Of a stretch of 34,697 bases of DNA, positions 10,626 to 29,506 are shown piece after piece. The stretch covers positions 1-34,697 of the forward strand of contig JACQPE010000129.1 in assembly GCA_016207685.1 (NCBI GenBank), read 5' to 3'. Made by a program: the position numbers and the translations under genes. This DNA comes from Elusimicrobiota bacterium. GTDB lineage: Bacteria > Elusimicrobiota > Elusimicrobia > JACQPE01. Within the stretch, counting starts at the first letter, position 1; every line of letters begins with the position of its first letter. The notes under the pieces were generated by a model that worked only from the letters and a program-made list of their open reading frames with translations, was not told the origin of the DNA and made no database searches.

Positions 10626-10640
10626 TGAAAATTGGGGTCG

Positions 10641-10748
10641 AAATTGGGGTCGCATCTCAACATTTTACATTTGAGAGCAAGGAATACACGGGATAAAATA
10701 AGTGAAAAAAAATGACGAGATATAAAATGTTGAGACGTGACCCCATTA
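10641..10748. repeat. About 108-bp inverted-repeat element (MITE/REP-like)
   Basis: Left arm GGGGTCGCATCTCAACATTTTACAT (10646-10670), right arm ATAAAATGTTGAGACGTGACCCC (10722-10744), inverted complements with few mismatches; tandem AAATTGGGGTCG duplication at the left end. Confidence 0.75.
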
Positions 10749-12542
10749 TTCTTTTGAGATGCCGTAGAAATAGACGCCTGGAAACATGGGATTCCAGTAG
10801 AAGCCCTTGACCCAGTCGCGCATCGCTCGGAATACCAAGGGTTGATCCGTGTAGATTTGAGGAACCTCTTCAAACGCCATTTCTTGAAGTTTGAAATAAA
10901 TCATCTCCCTTTTTTTGGCGTCTATCGTCACGTTGGCCTCGTCAATCATCCGGTCCCACTCCGGGTAGCCAAATCCCTGGCGCAATGGATAGCTGCCGCG
11001 AGAATGCAAAAATGCGTAGGCAAAGTTGTGCGGATCCGTGTAATCAGCGGTCCAGCCGATTTTAAAAATGGGAAGCTTGTGCGCCCGGCTTTCAGCAAGA
11101 TAGGTTGACCACTGAATGCCGCGCAGATCAATCTTAAATTTTGAATTTAGAGCCTCGACGCCGCGTTTGAGGATTTCACAGGCCATCTGCCGGTAAGTGT
11201 TGTTGGCATCGTAATAAATGGCCATGCGAAAACCCTTATCCCAAACTTGGCCGCCCCATGCTTGTTCAAGATATTTTTTGGCCTTGACGGAATCATATAA
11301 ATAGACGGGTTGCTTAGGGTTGTAGCCGAGCATCTCTTTGGGCATGAAGCCCGTCGGACGGTTCGCTTTGCCCCGGAGAATTTCTTTGATATAGACGTCG
11401 GCGTCAAAAGCGTGGGCGAATCCCTTGCGGACATTTTTATCCGTAAAGAAATCCGGAGGAATGCCTTCGCCGTCAAGTTTTCCCGAATAGATGGCGGTGT
11501 TGCCGGCCGTGCTGATCTTGAAGGTAAAATAAAGAGCCTCAACCCGGACATAAGGAAAATCATAAAGCTTAACCCCCGGCAAATGGGCCAGTTGAGGCTC
11601 GTATTGGCGGCCCTGGGTTTCATCGAGATAATCAGCGTCGCCGGAAGCCAACAGAAGCTTGCGCGTCCCAAATTCCCCAACGCCCTTGATGATAACGCGT
11701 TCCAAAACCGCGGGCTGGCGCCAATATTTCTCATGGCGGACCAAGGAGATTTGTTTCAAGTTCTTATCCCAGCGCTCGAGCATAAAGGGGCCAGTGCCGT
11801 TCATGTTGGCATAAAGAAATGAGGCTTCTTTCTTGGGATTGTTGAATTTCTGCCATGTTGTCGGCTCGCCGTCCCAATCGCCGTTTTTAATGGCCCAAGT
11901 CTTGCTCACCACATAGCTCTGCATGGGCATGATCGAAAGAAACGGCCCATACGGTTTTTTTAATTTAATAACCAGCGTTTCTTTATCACAGGTAATTCTG
12001 GAAAATAAATCAGGGGTATCCACAACAATGGCGCCGGTTTCATCGCGCGTGCCGGGCAATCCGGCAATGGGCTCCAAGAGCAGTTCTGACGGCCCACCGG
12101 CGCGGTCATAGAGCATAAAACGGAGCATGGAGTAGCGCACGTCCTCGCAGGCGAGGGTTCCACCTTGGTGAAAGTTCACGCCCTGGCGTATAGGGAATTT
12201 ATAAATAAGTCCATCGCTGGAAATGAGGTCATTGTGGCGCGAGGGCACGGCTTCAGAAAGGATAGGGACGTAATCGTTGACGGATTCGCGTTTATAAAAA
12301 ATAAGTGGCTCATAGACATTCATCAGCGCTTCGTAGCTGGCCGTGTCAAAAGCCCAGGCCGGGTCCAGGCTATCAAGGTCACCACTGGATTTGATCTCAA
12401 TGAAAGTGCCAGGATTTTTAACGGGCGCGGACAAAACGCCCAAAGTCCAAGGTCCAAAATCAAAAGTCAATAAAATAAAAAAAACGAAAAAAATTTCCCT
12501 CTTCGAGTCTGGACGTTGGACTCTGGACGTTGGACTCTTTAT
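10746..12542 (-). CDS. ABC transporter substrate-binding protein, family 5 (oligopeptide type), paralog 1; true start uncertain
   Basis: ORF track starts at TTG 12470, but the frame is open upstream and reads (12542->) IKSPTSRVQRPDSKREIFFVFFILLTFDFGPWTLGVLSAPVKNPGTF..., a signal-peptide-like N-terminus inside a heptad palindrome. SBP_bac_5 features: LDSLDPAWAFDTASYEALMNVYEPLIFYK, KFPIRQGVNFHQGGTLACEDVRYS. Confidence 0.85.
   Translation of the reverse strand: MKSPTSRVQRPDSKREIFFVFFILLTFDFGPWTLGVLSAPVKNPGTFIEIKSSGDLDSLDPAWAFDTASYEALMNVYEPLIFYKRESVNDYVPILSEAVPSRHNDLISSDGLIYKFPIRQGVNFHQGGTLACEDVRYSMLRFMLYDRAGGPSELLLEPIAGLPGTRDETGAIVVDTPDLFSRITCDKETLVIKLKKPYGPFLSIMPMQSYVVSKTWAIKNGDWDGEPTTWQKFNNPKKEASFLYANMNGTGPFMLERWDKNLKQISLVRHEKYWRQPAVLERVIIKGVGEFGTRKLLLASGDADYLDETQGRQYEPQLAHLPGVKLYDFPYVRVEALYFTFKISTAGNTAIYSGKLDGEGIPPDFFTDKNVRKGFAHAFDADVYIKEILRGKANRPTGFMPKEMLGYNPKQPVYLYDSVKAKKYLEQAWGGQVWDKGFRMAIYYDANNTYRQMACEILKRGVEALNSKFKIDLRGIQWSTYLAESRAHKLPIFKIGWTADYTDPHNFAYAFLHSRGSYPLRQGFGYPEWDRMIDEANVTIDAKKREMIYFKLQEMAFEEVPQIYTDQPLVFRAMRDWVKGFYWNPMFPGVYFYGISKE
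12441..12542 (-). repeat. Heptad palindrome element A (overlaps signal-peptide region of SBP paralog 1)
   Basis: + strand left arm AAGTCCA AGGTCCA AAATCAA AAGTCAA (12443-12470); right arm TGGACGT TGGACTC TGGACGT TGGACTC (12510-12537), inverted relative to left; A/T-rich loop. Confidence 0.85.
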
Positions 12543-14366: not shown

Positions 14367-15410
14367 TCAATTTACGATGACGGTTTCGATTTTGTCTTTA
14401 AAGTGAATAGCGGCGGGAGAGGGTTGATTGCTAAATGGAGCGATGGGGCAGAGGGCGCCGTGTCCGGAGGCGGTTTCAACCCAAGCGGGTTCATCTTTCC
14501 GGCACGATTCTTGAACGAAACGGCACCGGGGATGAAAATAACATCCGGTGGGCGGATTAAGGGGGCTGGGAACATCGCCTGTCAGGAGAATTCTCGGGCG
14601 TTCGCGCAGGCCGGGGTCGGGAATGGGGCAAGACGAGAGCAAGGCTTCCGTATAGGGATGCTGCGGGTTGGTAAATACTTCCCGGCTGGGCGCAAGTTCC
14701 ACAATGCGGCCCAGATACATGACGGCCACGCGGGTGGCGATATGCTTGACCACGGATAAGTCATGGGAGATAAAAAGATAAGTCAAGCGCAATTTTTTCT
14801 GGAGATGATCCAATAGATTGAGAACCTGCGCCTGAATGGAAACGTCGAGCGCGCTCACCGGCTCATCGCAAACAATCACCTTGGGATTTAAAGCCAGCGC
14901 CCGGGCAATGCCGATGCGCTGGCGCTGCCCTCCTGAAAATTCATGCGGGTAACGCTCCGCGTGATGGCTGGCCAAACCTACAAGGTTAAGAAGTTCATTC
15001 ACGCGCTCTTGCATCTCCCCTCCCCTGGCCGTCTGATGAATAATGAGAGGTTCGGCAATGACGTCTTTGATTTTCATGCGAGGATTAAGACTGGAAAAGG
15101 GGTCTTGAAAAACGATTTGCACTTGGGAGCGGAAATTTTTCCATTGCGCTTTGTCGGAACTCCAGAGATCGCGGCCTTTAAACAAAACGGCGCCCTCCGT
15201 GGGCGTTTCCAGGCCCATAATGAGCCTTCCGAGCGTTGATTTGCCGCAGCCTGTTTCACCCACAATTCCCAGGGTTTCCCCCTCATGAATGTCCAGATTG
15301 ACGCCGTCAACCGCCTTGACCGTTCCTAAAATTTTTTTTCTGATGACGCCTTTGGACAGAATAAAGTATTTTTTAAGATTTTTTGCTTGAAGAATAATTT
15401 CGGAATTCAT
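14367..15410 (-). CDS. oppF: Oligopeptide/dipeptide ABC transporter ATP-binding protein (OppF/DppF)
   Basis: GETGCGKSTLGRLI, FSGGQRQRIGIARALALNPKVIVCDEPVSALDVSIQAQVLNLL, C-terminal oligo_HPY region HPYTEALLSSCPIPDP...GCYFHPRC. Confidence 0.94.
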   Translation of the reverse strand: MNSEIILQAKNLKKYFILSKGVIRKKILGTVKAVDGVNLDIHEGETLGIVGETGCGKSTLGRLIMGLETPTEGAVLFKGRDLWSSDKAQWKNFRSQVQIVFQDPFSSLNPRMKIKDVIAEPLIIHQTARGGEMQERVNELLNLVGLASHHAERYPHEFSGGQRQRIGIARALALNPKVIVCDEPVSALDVSIQAQVLNLLDHLQKKLRLTYLFISHDLSVVKHIATRVAVMYLGRIVELAPSREVFTNPQHPYTEALLSSCPIPDPGLRERPRILLTGDVPSPLNPPTGCYFHPRCRFVQESCRKDEPAWVETASGHGALCPIAPFSNQPSPAAIHFKDKIETVIVN

Positions 15411-16468
15411 GCGCGGGCAGCCTCGATAAGATGATTCATTTGCGCCTTGTGAAAAATTTCCACAGGGGCGCTGGAGCGCATGACTGGATCATGCAAAAGG
15501 CAGCTTGCCGTTTGGTTGGCACGGGACGGCAAGAGCTTGATGTTTCCTTTGCGGCAAGAGTCCCAAGCATAAGCGCAACGCGGCGCAAATAAGCAACCTT
15601 CGGGGGACTTGGCGAGATTGGGCGGCTGGCCCTCGATGGGAATCAAGCGTTCCGTTTGCTCGTTGAGTTTAGGTATGGAGTTTAAGAGTCCCCAAGTATA
15701 AGGATGGCTGGGCGTTTGAAAAATTTGCTTGATATTCGTGCGCTCCGCGGGCTTGCCCGCGTACATGACGATCACCTCATCGCAAATCTCAGCCACAACC
15801 CCGAGGTTATGCGTGATCAAAATAACGGCCATTTTATAGTCGTTTTGCATTTCTCGCATAAGGTTTAAAATTTGCGCTTGAATCGTCACATCGAGAGCCG
15901 TGGTGGGCTCATCCGCGATCAGAATATCCGGCTTCATGGCCAAGGACATGGCGATCATAGCGCGCTGGCGCATGCCGCCGCTAAAGGCATGGGGATAATC
16001 AAAGACGCGCTTGGCGGCATGGGGAATGCCGACCCTGTCAATGAGCTTGACCGTTTGATCCCAGGCGGCGGCTGCCGTGGCTCCCTCATGGTGCCGGATG
16101 GATTCGGCGATTTGCTCGCCTACGGTGAGCACGGGGTTGAGGCTCGTCATGGGCTCTTGAAAAATCATGGCAATGCGGTTGCCGCGGATGGCCTGCATTT
16201 GACGGGGCGGCAGTTTTAAGAGATCAACGGATTTTTCAGCGCCTTGGGAGCGAAAAAGGATTTCTCCTGAAATAATTTTTCCCGGAGGGTCGGGGATGAG
16301 CCGCAAAATGGAAAGCGCGTGCACGCTCTTGCCGCAGCCGGATTCGCCGACAATACCCAGGGTTTTTCCCGGCCAAAGATCGTACGAAATGCCGTCAACC
16401 GCGCGGACCACTCCTTCTTCGGTAAAAAAATAAGTTTTAAGGTCGTTAACAGATAAAACAGGGTTCAT
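15407..16468 (-). CDS. oppD: Oligopeptide/dipeptide ABC transporter ATP-binding protein (OppD/DppD)
   Basis: [73 protein letters not shown]...GCLFAPRC; overlaps oppF start. Confidence 0.94.
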
Positions 16469-16474
16469 TTGAGG

Positions 16475-16615
16475 AGTTCCAAGTTCCAGGTTCCAAGTTC
16501 CAGGCAGGGAAATTCCGAGTTCCAGGTTCCAGGTTCCAGGTCAGAAGTAGCAGAAGAATCTAAATTTAAATTTGATGTTTCTGAACTTGGAACTCGGAAC
16601 TTGGAACTCGGAACT
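16475..16615. repeat. Heptad palindrome element B (intergenic, upstream of oppD)
   Basis: Left arm AGTTCCA AGTTCCA GGTTCCA AGTTCCA (16475-16502) plus AGTTCCA GGTTCCA GGTTCCA (16518-16538); right arm TGGAACT CGGAACT TGGAACT CGGAACT (16588-16615), inverted relative to left. Confidence 0.9.
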
Positions 16616-16622
16616 CCCAATT

Positions 16623-16856
16623 TTAAATTGCCGTCGTAATAAGCGTTTCGGTTGAGGTAACGCCCGGGATCGCGCGAATTTTGGCGACCACGGTGTTAGA
16701 GAGGGTGGCCAAATCCTCTGTCTCCATGTCTAACACCAGGTCCCACCGGCCGAAAACCGCCGAGACGTGGGCGACTCCCTTGGTTTGTTTGATTGACTGT
16801 AAAGCCTGTTTTTCTTTACCGGATGAAAGCCGGACAAGCACTAATCCTGTAACCAT
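16623..16856 (-). CDS. Stand-alone Lrp/AsnC ligand-binding (RAM) domain protein without HTH
   Basis: MVTGLVLVRLSSGKEKQALQSIKQTKGVAHVSAVFGRWDLVLDMETEDLATLSNTVVAKIRAIPGVTSTETLITTAI matches the RAM-domain pattern. Confidence 0.85.
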   Translation of the reverse strand: MVTGLVLVRLSSGKEKQALQSIKQTKGVAHVSAVFGRWDLVLDMETEDLATLSNTVVAKIRAIPGVTSTETLITTAI

Positions 16857-16988
16857 GAGTTAATTTCCCCTTTCGATTGTCATTATCAGACTGGGCGCGA
16901 TTTTTTTCTCCCTAAGAACTCTAAACCCAAGAATCAGTCAATAATATCAAATGCGGCTGCGGACTTTGGTATTCTTGGATGTCAAAAG

Positions 16989-18584
16989 ATGACTCAATCG
17001 GCAATCAAAAAAACTTTTTTCATCGGCTCAATAGCCTTGGCCGCCCCAATCGGTTTCTCTTTTTCATCGGAATTTCATCTGGGTTTACCCGCAGCCGTTA
17101 AGAAAAAAGGCGTACAATTGAGTGAAGAGGTGGGGCCGCGATGGCAGGCGAATCTCTCTGTTTCTCAAGCAAGCGGCGTTGTTGCGGCCGGGACCCCAAT
17201 CGAGTCCTCCTCTCGTTTAAGACTCGCCTGGAGCGCGCCCTCCGAAGAGGTTGATCACTATGAATTTTCCATTATGGATATGATTGCAGGGCAAAGCGTG
17301 AGCACGCAGGCCTTTAAAACGGACACTTCTCTTCTTCTTGAAAATTTAAAATCCGGCACTTCCTACAAGGTCACCGCCGTCGCTTGCAAAGATTCCGCCT
17401 GCGCTCAAACGTGGCGCGGCAGCAACCAGGCGACAGGAACCACCAAAGAAGAGTATTGGCTCGTTAAGTCCACTGCTAATTCCCTTTCATCGGTCACCAA
17501 AATCGTTTCCAACGGCAACACCGTGCCCTCGGCGCTGCGCTATGGCAACGACGCCGGCGCCGGCATCGAGGGCTACCTTCAGCTCTATTACAATCCCGCT
17601 GAATCATCCCAGAAAGGCATGAAGATCGCGACAACGACAAATTCAGCGGCCACCTATTCATCTTTTACCGCCCTGGGCGCTTCCTATGGGCTTAACATGC
17701 CGTCAACGACAACCTATCTTTTGAGTCAGATAGGAACTTTTGCCGCCGTGCCTTTATCGGCATCCATGGGAAGCAAAATCCGGTTTTTCTTTGAAGCGAC
17801 CCAAACGACGACGACCAGCAATGGCGAAAAGAGTTTGACGCGCATCGTGTACGTGGACAGCCAAGACGGCTATCGCGGCTGGGATTTTAACTCCGGCACG
17901 TCTACCCTTTGCCAAACCGCGGACTATGCCGTCGGCGGCGGTTGCGAACCGGCCATCGTCATCGGCAATACGAGCGATACCGTTAACGGCAATTATAATA
18001 TCAAGAATGCCCGGCAATTTAAGGTCGGCTATCCCGCCTTGACCGACTGGCTATGGGACGGCGCCGCTGGAACGTTCATGATCTTCACTCTCGAAACCGT
18101 CACCTCATGCAGCGATTATCAAATGCTCTTCGGTTACGCCGTCTGGAGCGGCACAAATTGGATTGTCCAATACGCGTCGGAGAGCTGCCCTAAATTTTTT
18201 GAAGCGATGCAGGCCGCCATGCCGGTTCATATCGGCGGCGCTAAATACAAAATGTACTTTTCCTACAACGCATCGGCCGCGGTGATTTCAAGTTCCAGCA
18301 AGCCGGTCAAAATGATTTATGCCGATGGCGCCGTAACCGGCCTCGCCGGTAGAATTGATTTTGAAGATTGGGAATCCGAGTGGGACGCGAGAGGCGTTCA
18401 CTATCTTTGGGCCAACGGCGTGGAATTAACCGACGCGGAGGAGGGTCAATTGGATGATTTCGTCATCTTTGCGCCGGACCCCGACGCCGATCCCAAAGCG
18501 CTGTTGATGTACACCAACATCCGAGCCACGACAACGGATGATTCCATGCCCTTTCTAGCGATGGCGACGTTGATTAATCCATAA
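16989..18584 (+). CDS. Secreted protein with N-terminal Fn3-like domain, remainder unrecognised
   Basis: N-terminal hydrophobic segment; Fn3-like SRLRLAWSAPSEEVDHYEFSIMDM...LLLENLKSGTSYKVTAVACKDSAC; about 380 aa downstream not recognised. Confidence 0.75.
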   Translation: MTQSAIKKTFFIGSIALAAPIGFSFSSEFHLGLPAAVKKKGVQLSEEVGPRWQANLSVSQASGVVAAGTPIESSSRLRLAWSAPSEEVDHYEFSIMDMIAGQSVSTQAFKTDTSLLLENLKSGTSYKVTAVACKDSACAQTWRGSNQATGTTKEEYWLVKSTANSLSSVTKIVSNGNTVPSALRYGNDAGAGIEGYLQLYYNPAESSQKGMKIATTTNSAATYSSFTALGASYGLNMPSTTTYLLSQIGTFAAVPLSASMGSKIRFFFEATQTTTTSNGEKSLTRIVYVDSQDGYRGWDFNSGTSTLCQTADYAVGGGCEPAIVIGNTSDTVNGNYNIKNARQFKVGYPALTDWLWDGAAGTFMIFTLETVTSCSDYQMLFGYAVWSGTNWIVQYASESCPKFFEAMQAAMPVHIGGAKYKMYFSYNASAAVISSSSKPVKMIYADGAVTGLAGRIDFEDWESEWDARGVHYLWANGVELTDAEEGQLDDFVIFAPDPDADPKALLMYTNIRATTTDDSMPFLAMATLINP

Positions 18585-18588
18585 CGGG

Positions 18589-19407
18589 ATGAAAAAAATT
18601 GCGAATTGCGCGTTGCGCGTTGCGCGTTCAAAAAAAATCGGATTTCTTGTATTTCTATTTCTAACTCTAAACTCGCCGCTCGCAACTCGGAACTTTCTCT
18701 ATGGCATTGACAGCGCCGTTGGTTATGACTATGGAAATTTGAGTTTTTACTCCCCCTCCCGGGCCTGGCGGTTATGGATGCAGGATCGCACGGACACGGG
18801 TTCCGATTTCGTTGAATACATCCGCACGCACCGCTTTGAGCATTGGGACAATACCTTCAACGCGGGCTACGGCGGACAAGAGCGCGGTTTGCGCTGGGAA
18901 GTTAAATTCGGCGCCACGCCCAAGGCCGATACGATGTATCGCAACATGGTTGGGACGACGTTATTTTTACCCAGCCCAGGCTATCAGGTGGAGCCGTTCG
19001 TGCATGGCGATTACCGCCGGTACACAGGAGCGAAATTGACGGCCTCGGAAGCGGGTTTGCGCGGGACCGTTGGAAAAACTCTGGACGCCACGGTCTCCTG
19101 GGGCCGCCTAAGCACGACGCGCTTGGGCGATATTAACGTTAAAAACAGCGCGGGCACGACAAGCCAGCGCCTAGGCATGCATTGGACCCCGGCCATTTAT
19201 ATTTTTGGCTTGAGATTGAAACGCAAAGAATTTTTCGATCCCGGCAATCCCTATGATCCCCAGGATTACGAGGTGGATGAACACGGCGGCGGCATCAACT
19301 GGATGTTGGACCAAGGAGTCCAACTGCAGGGAACTTACGTTATTGAAGACCGCTCCAACGGCACCTGGATCAAAAAATACGGCATTACTTATCAGCAGGC
19401 GTATTAA
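18589..19407 (+). CDS. Secreted/outer-membrane protein, probable beta-barrel, unknown
   Basis: Signal peptide MKKIANCALRVARSKKIGFLVFLFLTLNSPLATRNFLYG encoded by a heptad palindrome; alternating amphipathic strands rich in aromatics and Gly. Confidence 0.65.
   Translation: MKKIANCALRVARSKKIGFLVFLFLTLNSPLATRNFLYGIDSAVGYDYGNLSFYSPSRAWRLWMQDRTDTGSDFVEYIRTHRFEHWDNTFNAGYGGQERGLRWEVKFGATPKADTMYRNMVGTTLFLPSPGYQVEPFVHGDYRRYTGAKLTASEAGLRGTVGKTLDATVSWGRLSTTRLGDINVKNSAGTTSQRLGMHWTPAIYIFGLRLKRKEFFDPGNPYDPQDYEVDEHGGGINWMLDQGVQLQGTYVIEDRSNGTWIKKYGITYQQAY
18598..18697 (+). repeat. Heptad palindrome element C (within signal-peptide coding region)
   Basis: Left arm ATTGCGA ATTGCGC GTTGCGC GTTGCGC (18598-18625); right arm AACTCTA AACTCGC CGCTCGC AACTCGG AACTTTC (18663-18697); T-rich loop. 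Confidence 0.78.
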
Positions 19408-20627: not shown

Positions 20628-23600
20628 ATGGGACGATTGCGTTTTAACACGGTTTTCTTTTTCCTCCTGGCCCTCATCGCGCCACGATGTCTCCTTGGCG
20701 CGACGATTTCCAGCAGCCGGTCGGGAACCTGGTCGTCCACTGGCCTGGCGCCCTTTAGTTCGCTTCCGGATTTTGATGATGACGTCGTGATATCCACGGG
20801 GCATACCGTTGGGATTACGGATAGCACTCGGGCCAAGGCCAAGTCTATCAGCGTTCAAGGAACCCTTCGCTGGAACGTCACATCGGGCACGGCCACCTTG
20901 GCCGTAGGCGGGGGCAGCATCACGGTCAAGGCCGGCGGCAAACTTCAAATAGCCTCCACCGATGGCGCTCCCTTGACCGATTCAGCCGTGGCCCAAGTGA
21001 TTCTTTCCAGCGGTAGTTCCGCCGGAATCTACGGGGGCATTGTCATTGAAAATGGCGGAATGTTTATCGTTAACGGCTCCACCAAAAACCCTTACGCGCT
21101 GGCCAGCGCCGACGCCGCCAAAAACGCAACGTCGCTGACCGTTAACTCCTCCTCCGTTACAGGCTGGGCCGTCGGAGATGCGATCACCATTGGCCAGACG
21201 GAAAGAGCGTCCACGAGCCAGACGGAAAAAAGGACCATCGCGTCGCTTAGCGGCGGCACCATTGGGCTCGATTCCGCCCTTTCCTACGCCCATTACGCGA
21301 CAAACACCATTATCGTGGCCAACTTAACGCGCAATGCCGTCATCAAATCTTCCAATGCCTCCAATTCTCAAATCGGATATATTCGCAATTTAACGGCCTC
21401 GGCCACCAATTTTGTTGTCAATTACGGCGAGTTCAATGGACTGGGGGTTGACCAGGGCAATATCTATGGCATCGTCTTCGATTCGGGAACATATCCGAAC
21501 GGCCAAGGCTCCATCGCAAACTCCTCCATTCATGACGGTTACACCGGCGTCTACATCAACCGCACGTCTTCCGTCACGCTGACTTACAATGACATCTACG
21601 CCAACGGCTCAACAGGAATTGCCGTCGTTTCTTCTTCTCACTCGGTTATTATTGGAAATAGCGTCGCCGGTAGTCCGCAAGGCCTCTCCGGCACCGCCGA
21701 TCAATGGAATTCTATTTCGGGGAATTATTTCTGTTCCAATTCAACGGGAACGTCATTTTATATTTCCGCCAACAATGCGCTCTCCGGAAATCGTTTCTTT
21801 GGAAATACCGGAAATGGTTTGACAATCCAAGGCGCATGGAATTTCTTGACGGCTAACAATACCGCTCATAACAATGAAAATTATGGAATTTATCTTTCCA
21901 CGGCCTGGTTTTTTGGCACCATCCCGGTCAGTAATAATACCGTCAGCAGCAATACCGTTTATGGCAACGGCTCCCATGGTATTTCTTTGGCAGGGGCGAC
22001 GGGTCTATCGCTGGCCAACAACACTATCCACTCAAACAACAATCACGGTCTATACATGCTCAACACGGCCACCACCGCCATCACGGGAAACATCGTTTCT
22101 TCCAATACGATTTCCGGCGCCGGCGTCGCCTCCGGTATTTTTGCGACCGGTTCCTCCTCCAACACTTTTTCCGGCAATGCGGTGTCTCACAATGAAGCTT
22201 ACGGGACCTATTGGGACAATGGGTCCAATCTGAACTCGCTGAATGGCAATTCGGTCTTTTCCAATGCTTATCGCGGCCTCTATATATTGCAATCAGCCAG
22301 CAACACGCTCTCTAATAATTCCATCTACTCCAATAGCGGCGGGGGCATTGATCTGGAATACGCCACAGGCACGGTTTTAACTGGAAACTGGATTTACGGG
22401 CACACGGGCAGCTCCCACGGCATTCGCGTGTTTTACGGCTTTAATAACAGTTTCTCAAGCAATACGATCTACTCCAATGGAGGCTCCGGTCTTTACCTTT
22501 ATCATGCTGACTACCCCGGCAGCCTGACGATAATCGCCAGCCGCATTTACGGCAATTCCTCGGTGGCTATTAATGTGCTTCGCTCATCGGCCGTTATCAG
22601 CGATTCATGGCTTGGATGGGATCCAGGCGGGGCCTCCGCGGCGGACTCTTCAGGAGAAATTTATTTTGGTGATAGGGGCGGCATAACCCTGCGCAACACG
22701 CAGATTAATCCCGATACGGGAATTGCCACCTCAACATTCAACGGCGCCGATCGTTCAGTAATTTCTTACCGGCATAATGGGACTACCGGAGAGACGCATC
22801 TTTGGGGCGATTACAAGGTGGAAGGCGGCACCATATCTTTGGAATACGCCGGCAATCTTTATGCTTCATCAGCAACCACGCCCACTCTTGTTCGCAGGCT
22901 CGCGGGCACGGATCATGCGGCCACTGTGATTTCCGTTAATGACAGTTACACGCTGACTGAAAAAATAACGATTACCTATAAAAGTTCATGGACCGTTTCA
23001 GGCTCATTGAGCGGCGTCTTGGGGTCATTTAATGATAATGCCATTATTAATAGCGCTGGCCAATATTTCCCCAACCCCTCCGCGCCAAAATTAAAACTTA
23101 AATTCATCCAGGGGAGTTCCCCATCGGAAGGCGACCGGATTGAATTTTTAACCTTGGCCGCCTCCGGCGACTCGAATACCCAGAAAAAGCTCTACTTTCA
23201 CAGCGCGGACTCTACCTTTAATAATGGTTATTCGCGGCTGGGCATTGAGCCAAGCGGGGTTTTTTACGCCACGGGCACGTCCGTTTATCCGACCTTAATT
23301 AACTTGGCCGACGGCGGGACTTACTATACGTTGAGCAGTTCCGGAACTCTCTACACGCAATTTGCCAACATTTCCAATATTGACCCCACCGGCTTGCAGC
23401 TTAACGCCATCGGCCCGGCTGGAAGCGTGGGCATATCAAGCGTTACTTTTGATTACATCGGCGTGGGCCCTTCCGGGCAAACATCGGCTTACTTAAGGTT
23501 GCGGAACCTTTACTCAACGGCAACCATGGATCACGTCCGTTTCAATCTTTCACGAAGCACGTCAGGCGCCAATGCGGCTTATAACGTTAATGTCACGGGA

Positions 23601-26600
23601 ACGGAATCGAATTTAGCCTGGACCATGACTAATCCCCTGGGCCCTTTTGCCGGAGACGCGCTTGAATCCGGCTCCAACAATGTTGACTGGGCGCCGACGA
23701 TGCCGGAGGATTTTAGGATCGGATCAGCCCAAATTTCCTCCATAACCTGGATTTGGAGCGATATTCGGGGCGAAGGCAATTACAAAGTTTATTCAACCAC
23801 CAGCGATAATCCCAGCGTTCAGCTTGCCATAGGAACAACCGAATGGGCGGAAGTTAGCCTCTCCACAAATGCCCTCTACGCCCGCTACTTGCGCGCTGCC
23901 AATGGATACGGATCCGTCATTTCGCCATTCATCTCAAGCTATACCTTAACTGCGCCGCCGACGGGGTTTTCAATTTTGGATGTTCGCAGTTCTTCAATTG
24001 CGGTCCAGTGGAGCGCCAACACTAATCCAACCTATACCAACTACCGAGTTGCCTATTGGACGGATGCAGGGTCAACCTCGACCTTGACAACGACCTACTC
24101 TACAGCCACCGTAACGGGCCTAAACCCCGGGGTCAAGTATTCCTTGCAGTTATATTCGGTCAATGGCGACACCATCGCGACCTCGGCCCTAAGCGACCCC
24201 ATGGTGGTCACCACTTCAGCCACCTTCCAGAGCATAACCACGGGCGCCTGGGGCGACCCGACAACGTGGTCCTTGGCAAGAGCGCCCCTGACCAGCGATG
24301 CCGTAACGATTACGACCGGCACCACGGTCACCATCAATCAAGACGCGGAAATTCAATCTCTTTCGGTTTACGGCCTTCTACAATGGACCCCAGCGGCGGC
24401 TTCCGCGACATTGACCATGAACGGCGGCGATATCGTTATTTATGCCGGCGGCTCCATACGGATGGGCACGTCTGCGTCAAGCCTGCGCCCAGGGACCACG
24501 GCAACAATCATTCTTTCCACCGGCACGGCAGGGCAATACGGCCTTATCGTGCGACCCGGAGGGTCCTTGGTTATGGCTGGAACCACCAAAAGCCCGTATA
24601 CGACGGCCACGGCCGATATTGCCGCGGGCGCTTCCAGCTTAAGCGTTGACGCGAGCAGCGCGACCAATTGGGGCGCGGGTGATTTTATCACCGTCAGTCA
24701 AACGTCGCTAAGCTCAACGAGTCAGACGGAAAAGAAAAAAATCACGGCAATTTCCGGCGGCAATATAACGGTGGATTCGGCGTTCAGCTATCCCCATTTG
24801 GCGACCTCGACGATATACGTGGCCAACCTCACGCGCAATGCGGTCATCCGTTCTTCGGGCACGCAAACCGCCTATATCCAGAATCTAGCGGCGGCCGCGA
24901 CAGACTTTGATCTGCGGTACTCGGAATTAGAGGGTCTCGGCACGTTGGCAAGCGGTAAATACGGAATTACCTTTGACAGTTCATCGGCTAAAGGGCGCCT
25001 GCTGTTTAACTCCATCCATGACGGACTATTCGGCATTGTTCTCAACGGCTCTTCGGGAGTTTGGCTTTTGGCTAATAATTTTTACGCCAATTCCCTAGGC
25101 ATTGACCTCTTCAACTACGCCAGCAGCAATACAATCAATGGAAACATCGTATCGAAAAGCGCCAATCAAGGTCTCTATTCATCCGCATCGAGCAGCAACA
25201 CCTTCATTGACAATCTTGTTTACTCCAATGGCAATAACGGCATCACTTTGGATCAAGGGTCGCACAACATCTTGAAAGGTAACAGGTCCTTCGCCAACAA
25301 CGGCACGGGCTTCTATCTCAACAATGCCGGCTTTAATGCGATTTCAGATGGCGCCGCGTCTATCAATACGAGCAACGGACTCTATGCCCTCAACGCCGCC
25401 AGCAACACCATAGCCTCAAATCGTTTTTATGAAAATAACGAAAACGGCATTTATTTGAATGCCGCGGATAAAAATACGGCCGTGGATAATATCCTCTACT
25501 CCAACAACGGACATGGCATCAGGATTGCAGGCGCTGCCGACCACCTATTGTCAGGCAATTTCATTTACTCCAATGGAAATTACGGCTTTAACATTGGAGG
25601 CGGATCCACGGCGACGCTGGTCAATACGGTATTCGGATACAATGCTTCGGGAGAATCCGCCCCTGATTTTTCGGCTGAAATTTACTTTGCCGGGGCCGGC
25701 CATGTGACGCTCAAAAATAGCGCGATCAATCCCTATGCCGGCGTTTCCACGGCGTCTCTAACCGGCGTTGGCCGCGCCATCCTTTCCTTGCGGCAAAATA
25801 GCGCTGCCGGTGAGACGCACCTCTGGGGCAATTATGCCGTGGAAACGGCCACCATGACGTTGTCTTATGCCTCCGCTTTGTATGCCTCGACCGCGACGGC
25901 GCCGCGCATTATTCGAACTGCGGCGGGAACCGAGCCGTCGCTGCAAATTACAGCCACCAATGATTCCAATACCCTGACTGAACTTATCATCGCCACTTAC
26001 AGCGCTTCTTCCGGGAGATGGAGCCTTTATGGCTCCTCAAGCGGCGCGCTGGGATCATTCGCCAACGCCTCCGCCTTGACAAATGAAGCTTTTCCCAACA
26101 GCTCCTCGCCTAAACTTTATTTGAATTTCAGTCCCGGCAGCTCTCCAACAGACGGCGACCGTATGGATTTTATGACCTTGGCAGGCGCGGGCGACGCCTC
26201 GGTGCAAAAAAAGCTCCATTTCCATCAAGCCCATACCACGTTTAATAGCAGCCATTCGCGTTTAATAGTCAAACCCGGCGCCGGTTTTGAAGCCGTGGGA
26301 TCGGCTTCGAGGCCGACACTGATCAACATGGCCGAAGGCGGCACCTATTACACCCTGATTAGTTCCGGGGCGTTTAACATTTTATTTTCGAGTTTCAACA
26401 ATTTAGACCAAAACGGCCTACAGTTGGGCGGGTCAGGCGCAACAGTTTCCCTTTCTTCTTCCTCCTTTGATTATATAGGCCTGCCATCGGCCGAAGGTTC
26501 ATCATCGGCCTACATCACCGCTCGCGATTTAAGTTCAAGCGCGACATTCTACAGCATGGCGTTTAATCTATCACGTTCCACGATTTCGCCGGCCTTTAAT

Positions 26601-28484
26601 GTCAAAGTGGAAGGTGACGATTCGGCCTTGAGCTGGTATTTTAGACAACCCTCTGGCGCATTAAGCGGCGAGTCCCATGACAATGACCCCAATGGTAAAA
26701 TTGGCTGGTCCATGACCCAGATTGGCGCCATGACAGGAACAGGACTGGGAGTTTCCTCGATTTCCTGGACCTGGACGGACGTAGATGGTGAAACCGGCTA
26801 TCGCGTCCTTTCATCATCCGGCGGCAATATGTCGGGAGAATTGGCCGCCAATACCGTAAGCTGGACTGAACCCGGACTTTCAACCAATGCCGCCGTAACG
26901 CGCCAGTTGGCGGCTTTTAACAGCAATGAAACGTCTTACGCCGCGGCTGTTGTTGTTTATACCTTGGCCGCGCCGCCGACAGGCTTGGCCTTCGCCCAGG
27001 TCAACATTTCCTCATTTGTGGTGGCCTGGGGGGCCAATACCAACCCATCCTCCGATACCAGTTATCGTCTGGCGTATTGGGAAGCAGGCGGCTCCACCAC
27101 AAGCGTAACATCATCCGGCCTGACCAAAGCCATTAACGGTCTCGCGTCAGGCGCCACTTATTTTGTCCAAGTCTATGCGGTTAATGGCAGCGGCCAGGAA
27201 ACAGCCTCGCAAGAGGCGGCCGTATCCACCCGGACCACGGAAGCGCCGCCAACGGCCGCAGTGTCATTTGCAGGTTCTGCCATAGGCGTTTCATCCATCA
27301 CCTGGTCCTGGACTGATGCTGAAGGTGAATTAGGCTACCGCGTCCTTTCATCATCCGGCGGCAATATGTCCGGAAGCCTCGCCGCCGGCGCCTCGACATG
27401 GACGGAAACAGAACTTTCCACGAATACGGTTTACGGCAGAGTCATCGAAGCCTTTAATAACTATGGTTCTTCGGTTACCTTGACCACGGTGACGGTCTAC
27501 ACCCAGGCGGCGCCGCCCAACAACCTCAGTTTTACGGCTGTTTACATGACCTCCATGACCGTTGCCTGGTCTTTTAATTCCAATCCCGCGGCCACCAATT
27601 TCAGGACCTATTTATGGCAGATCGGAGGATCAACGTCAACAACGGCAGTTATCGGCGTTTCATCAACGACCCTGGATGGCTTGAGTGCGGGCACGACCTA
27701 TTACTTAACGGTTCGCGCTGTCAATGGCGATGGCGCCGTAAGCCGTGCGCCGACGGCGATTTCCACGATTACGGCGATGGTTCCCTCCGCTTCGGTGACG
27801 ATTGATCCCGCTTCAGCCGCCACGTTAACGTTTGGCCCCCCCTCCGGCTCAATCACGATTGAAGTGCCGGCAAATACTTTTTCGGAAAGTCTGACCATGA
27901 CGGCGTCTCTCCCCTCTTCTAATTATCCGGCCGCCAATTCAGCGGCGGCTGTCCTCTCCGGGACGAACGTTGGCCTTGAAATTACGCTAAGCAAAAATTT
28001 GCAGCCCCTGCAAGAGGTGACCATCAATGTCGCCTATCGCGCCTCTGATGTGACGGGACGGGACGAGAGCCGTTTGCTTCTCGCCCGCTATGACACCTCG
28101 CGCAGCGTTTGGATACCCTTGGCCTCCACCCTGGACGCAGTCAATCGCTCGGTGACAGGAAAAACAAATCATTTTTCACTTTTTCAGATCATGGAGGCCA
28201 CGCCCGGCAGCACCGTGGATTCGATCGTCGTTTTTCCCAACCCCTTCAATAAAACCAAAGGCCATACCTCCGTCACTTTCTCCAATCTACCCGCCTCCAC
28301 GAACCTTAAAATTTACACTACGGTTGGCGAGATGGTTCGTGAATTAACCGCGGATAATGCGGGCCTGGCATCCTGGGACGTTAAAAACCAGGCAGGCTCC
28401 GAAGCGGCGAGCGGGGTCTATTTCGTCCTCGCCCAATCCCCCTCCGGAGAAAAGAAAATTTTTAAGGTGGCAATACAAAGGTGA
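20628..28484 (+). CDS. Giant secreted protein: two G8-like + right-handed beta-helix modules, Fn3-like repeats, ZU5-like domain, FlgD/T9SS-like C-terminal domain
   Basis: Signal MGRLRFNTVFFFLLALIAPRCLLG; NosD/PbH1-type repeats (SNTFSGNAVSHN, LSNNSIYSNSGGGIDLEYATGTVLTGNWIYG); C-terminus VVFPNPFNKTKGHTSVTFSNLPASTNLKIYTTVGEMVRELTADNAGLASWDVKNQAGSEAASGVYFVLAQSPSGEKKIFKVAIQR. Confidence 0.9.
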   Translation: MGRLRFNTVFFFLLALIAPRCLLGATISSSRSGTWSSTGLAPFSSLPDFDDDVVISTGHTVGITDSTRAKAKSISVQGTLRWNVTSGTATLAVGGGSITVKAGGKLQIASTDGAPLTDSAVAQVILSSGSSAGIYGGIVIENGGMFIVNGSTKNPYALASADAAKNATSLTVNSSSVTGWAVGDAITIGQTERASTSQTEKRTIASLSGGTIGLDSALSYAHYATNTIIVANLTRNAVIKSSNASNSQIGYIRNLTASATNFVVNYGEFNGLGVDQGNIYGIVFDSGTYPNGQGSIANSSIHDGYTGVYINRTSSVTLTYNDIYANGSTGIAVVSSSHSVIIGNSVAGSPQGLSGTADQWNSISGNYFCSNSTGTSFYISANNALSGNRFFGNTGNGLTIQGAWNFLTANNTAHNNENYGIYLSTAWFFGTIPVSNNTVSSNTVYGNGSHGISLAGATGLSLANNTIHSNNNHGLYMLNTATTAITGNIVSSNTISGAGVASGIFATGSSSNTFSGNAVSHNEAYGTYWDNGSNLNSLNGNSVFSNAYRGLYILQSASNTLSNNSIYSNSGGGIDLEYATGTVLTGNWIYGHTGSSHGIRVFYGFNNSFSSNTIYSNGGSGLYLYHADYPGSLTIIASRIYGNSSVAINVLRSSAVISDSWLGWDPGGASAADSSGEIYFGDRGGITLRNTQINPDTGIATSTFNGADRSVISYRHNGTTGETHLWGDYKVEGGTISLEYAGNLYASSATTPTLVRRLAGTDHAATVISVNDSYTLTEKITITYKSSWTVSGSLSGVLGSFNDNAIINSAGQYFPNPSAPKLKLKFIQGSSPSEGDRIEFLTLAASGDSNTQKKLYFHSADSTFNNGYSRLGIEPSGVFYATGTSVYPTLINLADGGTYYTLSSSGTLYTQFANISNIDPTGLQLNAIGPAGSVGISSVTFDYIGVGPSGQTSAYLRLRNLYSTATMDHVRFNLSRSTSGANAAYNVNVTGTESNLAWTMTNPLGPFAGDALESGSNNVDWAPTMPEDFRIGSAQISSITWIWSDIRGEGNYKVYSTTSDNPSVQLAIGTTEWAEVSLSTNALYARYLRAANGYGSVISPFISSYTLTAPPTGFSILDVRSSSIAVQWSANTNPTYTNYRVAYWTDAGSTSTLTTTYSTATVTGLNPGVKYSLQLYSVNGDTIATSALSDPMVVTTSATFQSITTGAWGDPTTWSLARAPLTSDAVTITTGTTVTINQDAEIQSLSVYGLLQWTPAAASATLTMNGGDIVIYAGGSIRMGTSASSLRPGTTATIILSTGTAGQYGLIVRPGGSLVMAGTTKSPYTTATADIAAGASSLSVDASSATNWGAGDFITVSQTSLSSTSQTEKKKITAISGGNITVDSAFSYPHLATSTIYVANLTRNAVIRSSGTQTAYIQNLAAAATDFDLRYSELEGLGTLASGKYGITFDSSSAKGRLLFNSIHDGLFGIVLNGSSGVWLLANNFYANSLGIDLFNYASSNTINGNIVSKSANQGLYSSASSSNTFIDNLVYSNGNNGITLDQGSHNILKGNRSFANNGTGFYLNNAGFNAISDGAASINTSNGLYALNAASNTIASNRFYENNENGIYLNAADKNTAVDNILYSNNGHGIRIAGAADHLLSGNFIYSNGNYGFNIGGGSTATLVNTVFGYNASGESAPDFSAEIYFAGAGHVTLKNSAINPYAGVSTASLTGVGRAILSLRQNSAAGETHLWGNYAVETATMTLSYASALYASTATAPRIIRTAAGTEPSLQITATNDSNTLTELIIATYSASSGRWSLYGSSSGALGSFANASALTNEAFPNSSSPKLYLNFSPGSSPTDGDRMDFMTLAGAGDASVQKKLHFHQAHTTFNSSHSRLIVKPGAGFEAVGSASRPTLINMAEGGTYYTLISSGAFNILFSSFNNLDQNGLQLGGSGATVSLSSSSFDYIGLPSAEGSSSAYITARDLSSSATFYSMAFNLSRSTISPAFNVKVEGDDSALSWYFRQPSGALSGESHDNDPNGKIGWSMTQIGAMTGTGLGVSSISWTWTDVDGETGYRVLSSSGGNMSGELAANTVSWTEPGLSTNAAVTRQLAAFNSNETSYAAAVVVYTLAAPPTGLAFAQVNISSFVVAWGANTNPSSDTSYRLAYWEAGGSTTSVTSSGLTKAINGLASGATYFVQVYAVNGSGQETASQEAAVSTRTTEAPPTAAVSFAGSAIGVSSITWSWTDAEGELGYRVLSSSGGNMSGSLAAGASTWTETELSTNTVYGRVIEAFNNYGSSVTLTTVTVYTQAAPPNNLSFTAVYMTSMTVAWSFNSNPAATNFRTYLWQIGGSTSTTAVIGVSSTTLDGLSAGTTYYLTVRAVNGDGAVSRAPTAISTITAMVPSASVTIDPASAATLTFGPPSGSITIEVPANTFSESLTMTASLPSSNYPAANSAAAVLSGTNVGLEITLSKNLQPLQEVTINVAYRASDVTGRDESRLLLARYDTSRSVWIPLASTLDAVNRSVTGKTNHFSLFQIMEATPGSTVDSIVVFPNPFNKTKGHTSVTFSNLPASTNLKIYTTVGEMVRELTADNAGLASWDVKNQAGSEAASGVYFVLAQSPSGEKKIFKVAIQR
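24222..26940 (+). repeat. Second copy of the G8-like/beta-helix module inside the giant gene (first copy about 20700-23700)
   Basis: Colinear similarity, e.g. STSQTEKRTIASLSGGTIGLDSALSYAHYATNTIIVANLTRNAVIKSS versus STSQTEKKKITAISGGNITVDSAFSYPHLATSTIYVANLTRNAVIRSS, and GETHLWGDYKVE versus GETHLWGNYAVE. Confidence 0.85.
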
Positions 28485-29506
28485 AAAAAGCTGCGATTTG
28501 CGAGCTGCGAGCTGCGAGTTTCACAATCAAAATAAAGAGAATTTTTTGTTTTCTTTCTCTCTTTCTAACTCTCAACTCGCAACTCTCAACTCGCAACTCC
28601 TTTGCCAGTGATTTCTCTTCCTCCGCCAAAGGAACAACTTCCGCGGGTTTCTTAAAGCTCGCCGCAGGGGCCCGCGCCGCCGCCCTGGGAGAAGCCTATG
28701 CGGCCATGGCCAATGACGCAACGGCTCTTTACTGGAACCCGGCCGCCTTGACCCGCCTGCCCCGCAAATCCGCCTCCTTCATGCATGCCCTGCACTTAGA
28801 TTCGAGCTTTTTTGATTATGCGGCTTATGGGCAGCCGATCAAATGGAAGTCGTCCAAACAAAAAACTTCCTTTGCCAAGAATTACGTGGGTTTCGCCTTG
28901 CAGTATTTTTCCGCCGGCGCCATCACGCAGACGGATGAAACCGGCACGCCAACCGGCTCTTTCACGCCCAATGACCTGGCCTTCACCGCAGGCTATGGCA
29001 AAAAATTAGGCACTTACTCCATCGGCGCAAACGCAAAATTGGTGCGCTCAACCATTGATGATACGGCTCAAACAATCGCGGTTGATTTGGGATTTTTATC
29101 CCCCGCCCATTTTTCCGGACTATGGCGCTACGGATTATCCGTCAGCAATCTCGGCGGATCGCTCCAATACGGGAGCGGGTCTGCGGAATCCTTGCCTCTA
29201 ATTATCCGATGGGGCAATGCCTTTCGCCTGGGCTCCTCATGGTCCGCCGCGCTGGATGTCGCCGCGCCGAAAGACAATGCTCCTTACTGGGCTCTTGGAA
29301 CCGAATACTACATCCCTATGGGCGGACGCTGGAACCTCTCGCCCCGCGCGGGTTACAATACGCGTTCATCGGACGATCTTGGCGGCCTTTCGGGAATTTC
29401 ATTTGGCTTTGGAACTGGGACATCGGCATTGGGATTTGATTATGCTTTTGTGCCTTTTGGGGACCTAGGCATTACCCATCGCCTATCTTTCTCCGTCGGG
29501 TTTTAG
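28481..29506 (+). CDS. PorV/PorQ (UPF0164)-like outer-membrane beta-barrel protein
   Basis: TSAGFLKLAAGARAAALGEAYAAMANDATALYWNPAALTRLPRKSASFMHA is the typical PorV/UPF0164 N-terminus; GTG start overlaps the giant gene stop (GTGA). Confidence 0.85.
   Translation: MKKAAICELRAASFTIKIKRIFCFLSLFLTLNSQLSTRNSFASDFSSSAKGTTSAGFLKLAAGARAAALGEAYAAMANDATALYWNPAALTRLPRKSASFMHALHLDSSFFDYAAYGQPIKWKSSKQKTSFAKNYVGFALQYFSAGAITQTDETGTPTGSFTPNDLAFTAGYGKKLGTYSIGANAKLVRSTIDDTAQTIAVDLGFLSPAHFSGLWRYGLSVSNLGGSLQYGSGSAESLPLIIRWGNAFRLGSSWSAALDVAAPKDNAPYWALGTEYYIPMGGRWNLSPRAGYNTRSSDDLGGLSGISFGFGTGTSALGFDYAFVPFGDLGITHRLSFSVGF
28490..28600 (+). repeat. Heptad palindrome element D (within signal-peptide coding region)
   Basis: Left arm GCTGCGA TTTGCGA GCTGCGA GCTGCGA (28490-28517); right arm AACTCTC AACTCGC AACTCTC AACTCGC AACTCC (28567-28600), inverted; T-rich loop. 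Confidence 0.9.

Follow-up and report, generated by a model that had tools for sequence, protein, structure and literature searches.

A hairpin of seven-base repeats between an Lrp-type gene and oppD in an Elusimicrobiota bacterium, and the dispersed class of heptad arrays that shares its architecture

The Lrp-oppD junction and element B

The window analyzed here, a stretch of 34,697 nucleotides from an Elusimicrobiota bacterium (assembly GCA_016207685.1, contig JACQPE010000129.1), carries on its minus strand a stand-alone gene for an Lrp/AsnC ligand-binding domain followed by an oppD-like gene. The gap between them is taken up by a 142-base hairpin of seven-base repeats at 16475-16616, element B, which leaves 6 nt to each flanking gene. 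Read on the plus strand, B consists of an array of 30 nt, a spacer of 8 nt, an array of 29 nt, a core of 38 nt, and an array of 37 nt. The features of the junction are as follows.

15407-16468, minus strand: oppD-like ABC transporter ATPase, downstream of B (Pfam PF00005 and PF08352)
16465-16620, minus strand: bridging open frame, from a TTG just past the Lrp stop, across all of B, to a TGA overlapping the oppD ATG (ATGA)
16466-16625, minus strand: RNA hairpin of 56 base pairs predicted for the sense transcript, spanning Lrp stop to oppD start
16475-16504, plus strand: array 1, 30 nt, (AGTTCCA)x4 + GG with the third heptad as GGTTCCA; the outer 3' arm on the gene-sense (minus) strand
16505-16512, plus strand: spacer between arrays 1 and 2, 8 nt, CAGGGAAA
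16513-16541, plus strand: array 2, 29 nt, TTCCG + (AGTTCCA / GGTTCCA)x3 + GGT; a second standard-size array on the same side, pairing with array 3
16542-16579, plus strand: core (loop), 38 nt, A/T-rich, each strand purine-rich first and T-rich last
16580-16616, plus strand: array 3, 37 nt, TGGAACT and CGGAACT alternating, complement of arrays 1 and 2
16623-16856, minus strand: gene for the stand-alone 77-aa Lrp/AsnC ligand-binding domain, on the upstream side of B (gene call; Pfam PF01037, E = 1.7e-12)

An earlier note on this DNA described a heptad palindrome, one member of a family, filling the Lrp-oppD gap with two repeat blocks on one side, and in this it was right in both sequence and coordinates. 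The arms are complementary at 93% over 27 nt, and 16583-16615 is (GAACTTGGAACTCG)x2.4 with a 100% match. The note also saw an interruption, GGCAGGGAAATTCCG, within one arm. A spacer does exist there, but most of the supposed interruption is itself repeat (a degenerate heptad, AATTCCG, and the GG that ends array 1), and the true spacer is the 8-nt CAGGGAAA. What looked like one interrupted arm is more plausibly two adjacent standard arrays. Arm growth by duplication or insertion within an arm, as the note proposed, gives way to another picture: because the arrays have a standard size, arms probably grow by gaining a whole array of ~30 nt. We rejected a general 14-nt unit, since ABAB and AABB columns are equally common family-wide (12 each) and the alternating arm of B is not the rule.

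Folding of the minus-strand transcript, a check suggested in the same note, gave a strong predicted hairpin (-64.8 kcal/mol, z = -7.7), and none of 200 shuffled sequences folded as well. At its foot, UUGGGAG pairs with CUCCUCAA, adjoining the oppD AUG. A consensus scan of 16400-17000 returned no terminator-like or promoter-like site, which speaks against a leader-peptide attenuator, as this requires a terminator hairpin followed by a T-run. No known RNA family matched across the window at the Rfam gathering score.

B had been called non-coding, and this is not secure. On the gene-sense strand one of the three frames is open throughout, with its TTG 4 nt before the arm. Among the 21 paired elements that lie between codirectional genes, a sense frame is open in 14 versus 8.1 expected from loop shuffles (0 of 2,000 shuffles reached 14), and an antisense frame is open in 9 versus 6.5 expected (P = 0.07). 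The loop shuffle loses the A-then-T order of the cores, from which part of the open-frame excess may stem, but the sense bias remains. We infer that oppD is probably translated by ribosomes that pass through B on the bridging frame, with its terminal ATGA, or by ribosomes that initiate at the base of the hairpin.

Lrp and oppD are also adjacent in two genomes of the same family (G002 and G003) and in two named Elusimicrobia records, with Lrp proteins 95, 90, 83, and 74% identical. In these four relatives the junction measures about 10-26 nt and has no palindrome, and because of this short, palindrome-free junction B is, on this genus-level comparison, a lineage-specific acquisition; the element would have displaced the original short junction. 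The G003 junction (L209) holds a three-unit run of another heptad, AGGGCTTAGGGAATAGGGCTTAG, and heptads may thus have reached this junction twice in different form.

A class of arrays of standard size

The genome was surveyed in sampled stretches, partly chosen for the GGAACT type. In 358 kb we counted 70 period-7 arrays against none in Markov-simulated sequence (6 of the 21 stretches, one replicate), and each of the other periods from 5 to 13 gave 0-4 arrays; the period-7 arrays are therefore not due to chance. No short period other than 7 and 14 is strongly over-represented in this sample. Genome-wide, the GGAACT pattern occurs at 162 overlapping places, compared with 2 for a reversed-pattern control. 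Contigs taken blind contain 10 arrays in 125 kb, or 80 per Mb, and this extrapolates to ~190 genome-wide, probably a couple of hundred. The other stretches give 195 per Mb, an overestimate, since they were partly picked for the GGAACT type.

The size distribution of the arrays has a sharp peak. In 518 kb, 67 of 101 arrays measure 29-35 nt, and perfect period-7 runs reach no further than 34 nt. The standard array is ~31 nt, or four heptads plus 2-5 nt, with a peak at 30-33 nt; in G003 the peak lies at 30-32 nt. GGAACTT-like heptads make up about half of the arrays and some 30 other heptads the remainder, with 35 distinct consensus heptads in the sample. Neither GGG nor CCC occurs in the unit of 56 of the 67 arrays of 29-35 nt. 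A search for a shared heptad motif yielded just a mild enrichment of ACT/AACT. Most heptads of this genome are stop-free on reading and encode an identical seven-residue repeat in every frame. General selection for heptads stop-free on both strands was rejected: such heptads account for 22 of 35 distinct ones in this genome but for 4 of 22 in G003, compared with 50% among all heptads.

Arrays stand single or in pairs, with partners 15-65 nt apart. The arms are inverted complements in 24 of 42 close pairs, where shuffling of partners predicts 11.0, and in G003 in 10 of 12, where it predicts 1.3; other pairs join unrelated heptads, such as GTTGCGG with AACTTGG. The first half of the cores is A-rich (46% A) and the second half T-rich (51% T), and the cores have no homology to each other. 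The exception lies in one ribosomal-protein operon (L190 3032-3148 and 3976-4079), where two copies are 98% identical over 128 bp, include the Shine-Dalgarno-like CAAGGAGCG, and end exactly at the ATG of the next gene. This pair is a recent copy or conversion. Since clean arms surround unrelated cores, the unit that is made or copied seems to be the array and not the whole element, and on the same ground we rejected whole-element transposition as a general route. A check for target-site duplications found no common border sequence among the flanks listed and a possible short repeat at one copy.

These cores also weigh on the idea that a transposase, for instance a RAYT, moved B in one piece as a conventional MITE or REP element. 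The elements are palindromic and dispersed, one near-identical pair exists, and the genome has three matches to RAYT-type genes. However, cores are unrelated and heptads change from one element to the next, the 3.3-kb loci examined around RAYT genes contain no heptad arrays, and genomes that carry arrays and genomes that do not both have RAYT genes, as far as array status can be read from small samples. We consider this origin quite improbable. When RAYT, reverse transcriptase, and Cas1 were compared as matching enzymes, none had a clean association with the arrays, the array-free genomes being called from small samples.

A further reading is local birth. Here an array would grow in place by polymerase slippage on the 7-nt unit and gain an inverted arm by template switching, with nothing moving. 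The many different heptads and the mixed variants in some arms speak for it, as does the occurrence of sites without net insertion, and a period of 7 has been linked to polymerase slippage in literature quoted in PMC4692102. Against it, the sharp size peak with few longer arrays is unlike slippage, one heptad type is common to about half of the arrays, and paired copies 98% identical exist. On balance we think local birth rather unlikely.

Among family relatives, arrays were found in G001 and G003, while G002 has nearly none (1 in 148 kb). Within the class, G022, G013, and G047 have arrays; none was seen in most other genomes of the class, in samples of 20 kb or less that are weak evidence of absence. 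Named records of Phycisphaerae and Desulfobacterales also contain paired or single arrays, as do IMG/VR-labelled contigs. One of the latter (L242) holds several arrays of differing heptads, mostly 26-34 nt, and represents either the same phenomenon in another lineage or a mislabelled bacterial contig. Another locus, L243 1184-1321, has a higher-order repeat in which a ~42-nt unit, composed of heptads together with GTTCTTGTTTTTT, occurs four times. The genome studied here is a draft, fragmented into 202 contigs, and several arrays sit at contig ends, as an assembly or library artefact might have it; yet arrays of the same size with other heptads occur in other genomes, named genomes of other phyla carry arrays, and copies keep the reading frames of essential genes (see below). 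The chance of an artefact is negligible.

Placement in enzymes and signal peptides

Placement was assigned with a home-made gene caller. The 68 elements of this genome comprise 25 internal, 20 N-terminal, and 1 C-terminal copies, that is, 46 of 68 in coding frames, together with 21 between codirectional genes, 1 between convergent genes, and none between divergent genes. For the 29 elements of G003 the corresponding numbers are 12, 4, 1, 11, 0, and 1.

Frame-keeping internal copies lie in LeuRS (two), ValRS, PheRS, ProRS, MnmA, Ddl (two), and Mfd, and in G003 in CarA, MurD, GlmM, UppS, HemE, ferrochelatase, and an MtaB-like gene. Comparison with solved structures confirmed LeuRS, MnmA, Ddl, and ValRS; the remaining hosts are what we take them to be by sequence recognition. 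Compared with solved relatives, the MnmA copy adds ~28 residues, the ValRS copy ~20, and the second Ddl copy ~40. One LeuRS array adds none, and hence not all arrays are simple insertions. A surface loop of LeuRS that carries a heptad array in this genome holds another inserted repeat in G001 (L238 / L240; HTGESRYP...GLDSGLRRNDE); as the two inserts differ, the same loop tolerates different inserts.

About 20 N-terminal copies resemble signal peptides: their basic start is encoded by the 5' arm and their hydrophobic stretch by the T-rich half of the core, and the 3' arm runs up to the likely cleavage site. The window itself contains three sister copies of this kind.

12440-12538, minus strand: AGTCCAA-type element, encodes the signal-peptide region of the solute-binding protein at 10746-12470
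18597-18628, plus strand: GTTGCGC-type array, encodes the basic start of the signal peptide of gene 18589-19407; a degenerate 3' partner lies in the next ~50 nt
28492-28599, plus strand: GAGTTGC/AACTCGC-type element, source of the complete signal peptide of the PorV-like protein at 28481-29506

At the corresponding place, orthologues of the solute-binding protein carry ordinary signal peptides, as do the nearest homologues of the PorV-like protein (41-42% identical). No ATG, GTG, or TTG stands ahead of the signal peptide at 12440-12538, and the frame begins near an ATA past the upstream stop; the gene may have a non-standard start, or a base call or the start assignment may be wrong. Two further features adjoin these genes. 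At 10629-10745, a 26-nt inverted repeat (88%) with TGGGGTC ends lies beside a perfect 12-nt duplication, AAATTGGGGTCG; this intergenic feature resembles a MITE or REP and seems to be a separate element. At 20628-28484, just upstream of the PorV-like gene, there is a single open reading frame of 2,618 aa.

The range of hosts bears on whether B is a regulatory device, in which the hairpin or its heptads would bind a protein or couple translation, setting oppD against the Lrp-type gene, and would be kept by selection. The precise fit between stop and start codons, the strong predicted hairpin at the oppD start, and the open bridging frame would all suit such a role, and four-unit heptads of Geobacter are annotated as putative regulatory elements (PMC2700814). 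But the element is absent or different at the same junction of relatives, the same kind of element sits within many unrelated enzymes and signal peptides, and B has no terminator or promoter signature. We find a regulatory role improbable.

Known heptad systems and a possible origin

Several known systems share features with these arrays, the nearest precedents being the heptad repeats of Xanthomonas and Geobacter, the cyanobacterial STRRs, and the palindromic elements of Rickettsia. Xanthomonas carries GGGNATC-type heptad repeats, and Nostoc a related G-rich heptad; these repeats have a preference for four units and form inverted pairs (PMC4692102). As in those genomes, our arrays are dispersed and prefer four units, in agreement with the peak at 30-33 nt, form inverted pairs (70-75 per genome in theirs; 24 of 42 and 10 of 12 close pairs here), and stand most often beside codirectional genes and rarely between divergent ones. 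Theirs, in contrast, are one family of G-rich, G-quadruplex-capable heptads, 89-93% intergenic and up to 26 units long, whereas ours comprise many heptads, mostly without G-runs, lie mostly in coding frames (46 of 68), and include few long arrays. In Geobacter metallireducens, four tandem heptads occur at 49 sites, both intergenic and inside genes, a further class consists of five units, and other repeat classes form pairs on opposite strands; unlike here, the consensus is fixed per class and the repeats carry an annotation as putative regulator sites, and the excerpt of PMC2700814 available to us reports no supply of signal peptides. The STRRs of cyanobacteria likewise include several heptads per genome, hairpins, and intergenic positions, comparable to the 35 heptads and the hairpin of B, and in the P6b stem of the Nostoc trnL intron whole heptad stems have been swapped for stems of another heptad (PMC4476775). 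Their unit number varies, however, and they occupy intergenic or RNA-gene sites; the portions of PMC2670836 and PMC4476775 on which this comparison is based report no in-frame protein copies.

Rickettsia palindromic elements are palindromes of ~100-150 bp that lie in frame in unrelated genes, in tolerated loops (reviewed in PMC10969869; PMC2996958), much as here. They are families of homologous sequence; in our class the architecture alone is shared and the arms are heptad arrays, with no family-wide homology that includes the core, the cores being unrelated except in one recent pair. The TAACTGA repeats of Beggiatoaceae (PMC4679880) are likewise tandem heptads at dispersed sites, frequently immediately ahead of start codons, but consist of one heptad, are almost only direct repeats, and have stops in forward reading. 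The present class joins features of known systems and is set apart by its many heptads; new are the mostly in-coding placement, the supply of signal peptides, and the four-unit size without G-runs, unless described before outside open-licence papers.

We favor, with some reserve, the reading of B as one copy, specific to this lineage, from a class of dispersed and probably selfish stem-loops built of heptad arrays. The unit would be the array of ~31 nt, or four and a half heptads. The hairpin would form where two arrays that share a heptad flank an A/T core in opposite orientations, and B would have an extra array on one side. Arrays would spread into new sites within transcription units by copying, through a putative enzyme, and would persist where they are harmless, at operon junctions, in surface loops, and in signal peptides. 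Stop-free heptads, with the same seven-residue repeat in all frames, would help them stay in frame. Unrelated cores are odd for a transposed unit and count against this explanation, as do the LeuRS array that adds no residues, the failure to find target-site duplications in general, and the partial choice of the sample for the GGAACT type.

Unrelated cores would fit a more speculative scheme, to which we give little credence, in which a putative templated activity writes a fixed run of ~31 nt of a changeable heptad onto DNA 3' ends. If both ends of a break were tailed and then joined, inverted arms of the same heptad would surround an unrelated A-then-T core; one tailed end would leave a single array, and two different templates would produce the mismatched arms observed.

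The over-representation of heptads in bacterial genomes is an old, unexplained observation. That dozens of heptad sequences here share one array size argues against G-quadruplexes as the cause of the four-unit preference in Xanthomonas. A simple repeat that serves as a portable signal peptide, as predicted, and as a tolerated insert in essential enzymes is a natural experiment in how repeats become protein.
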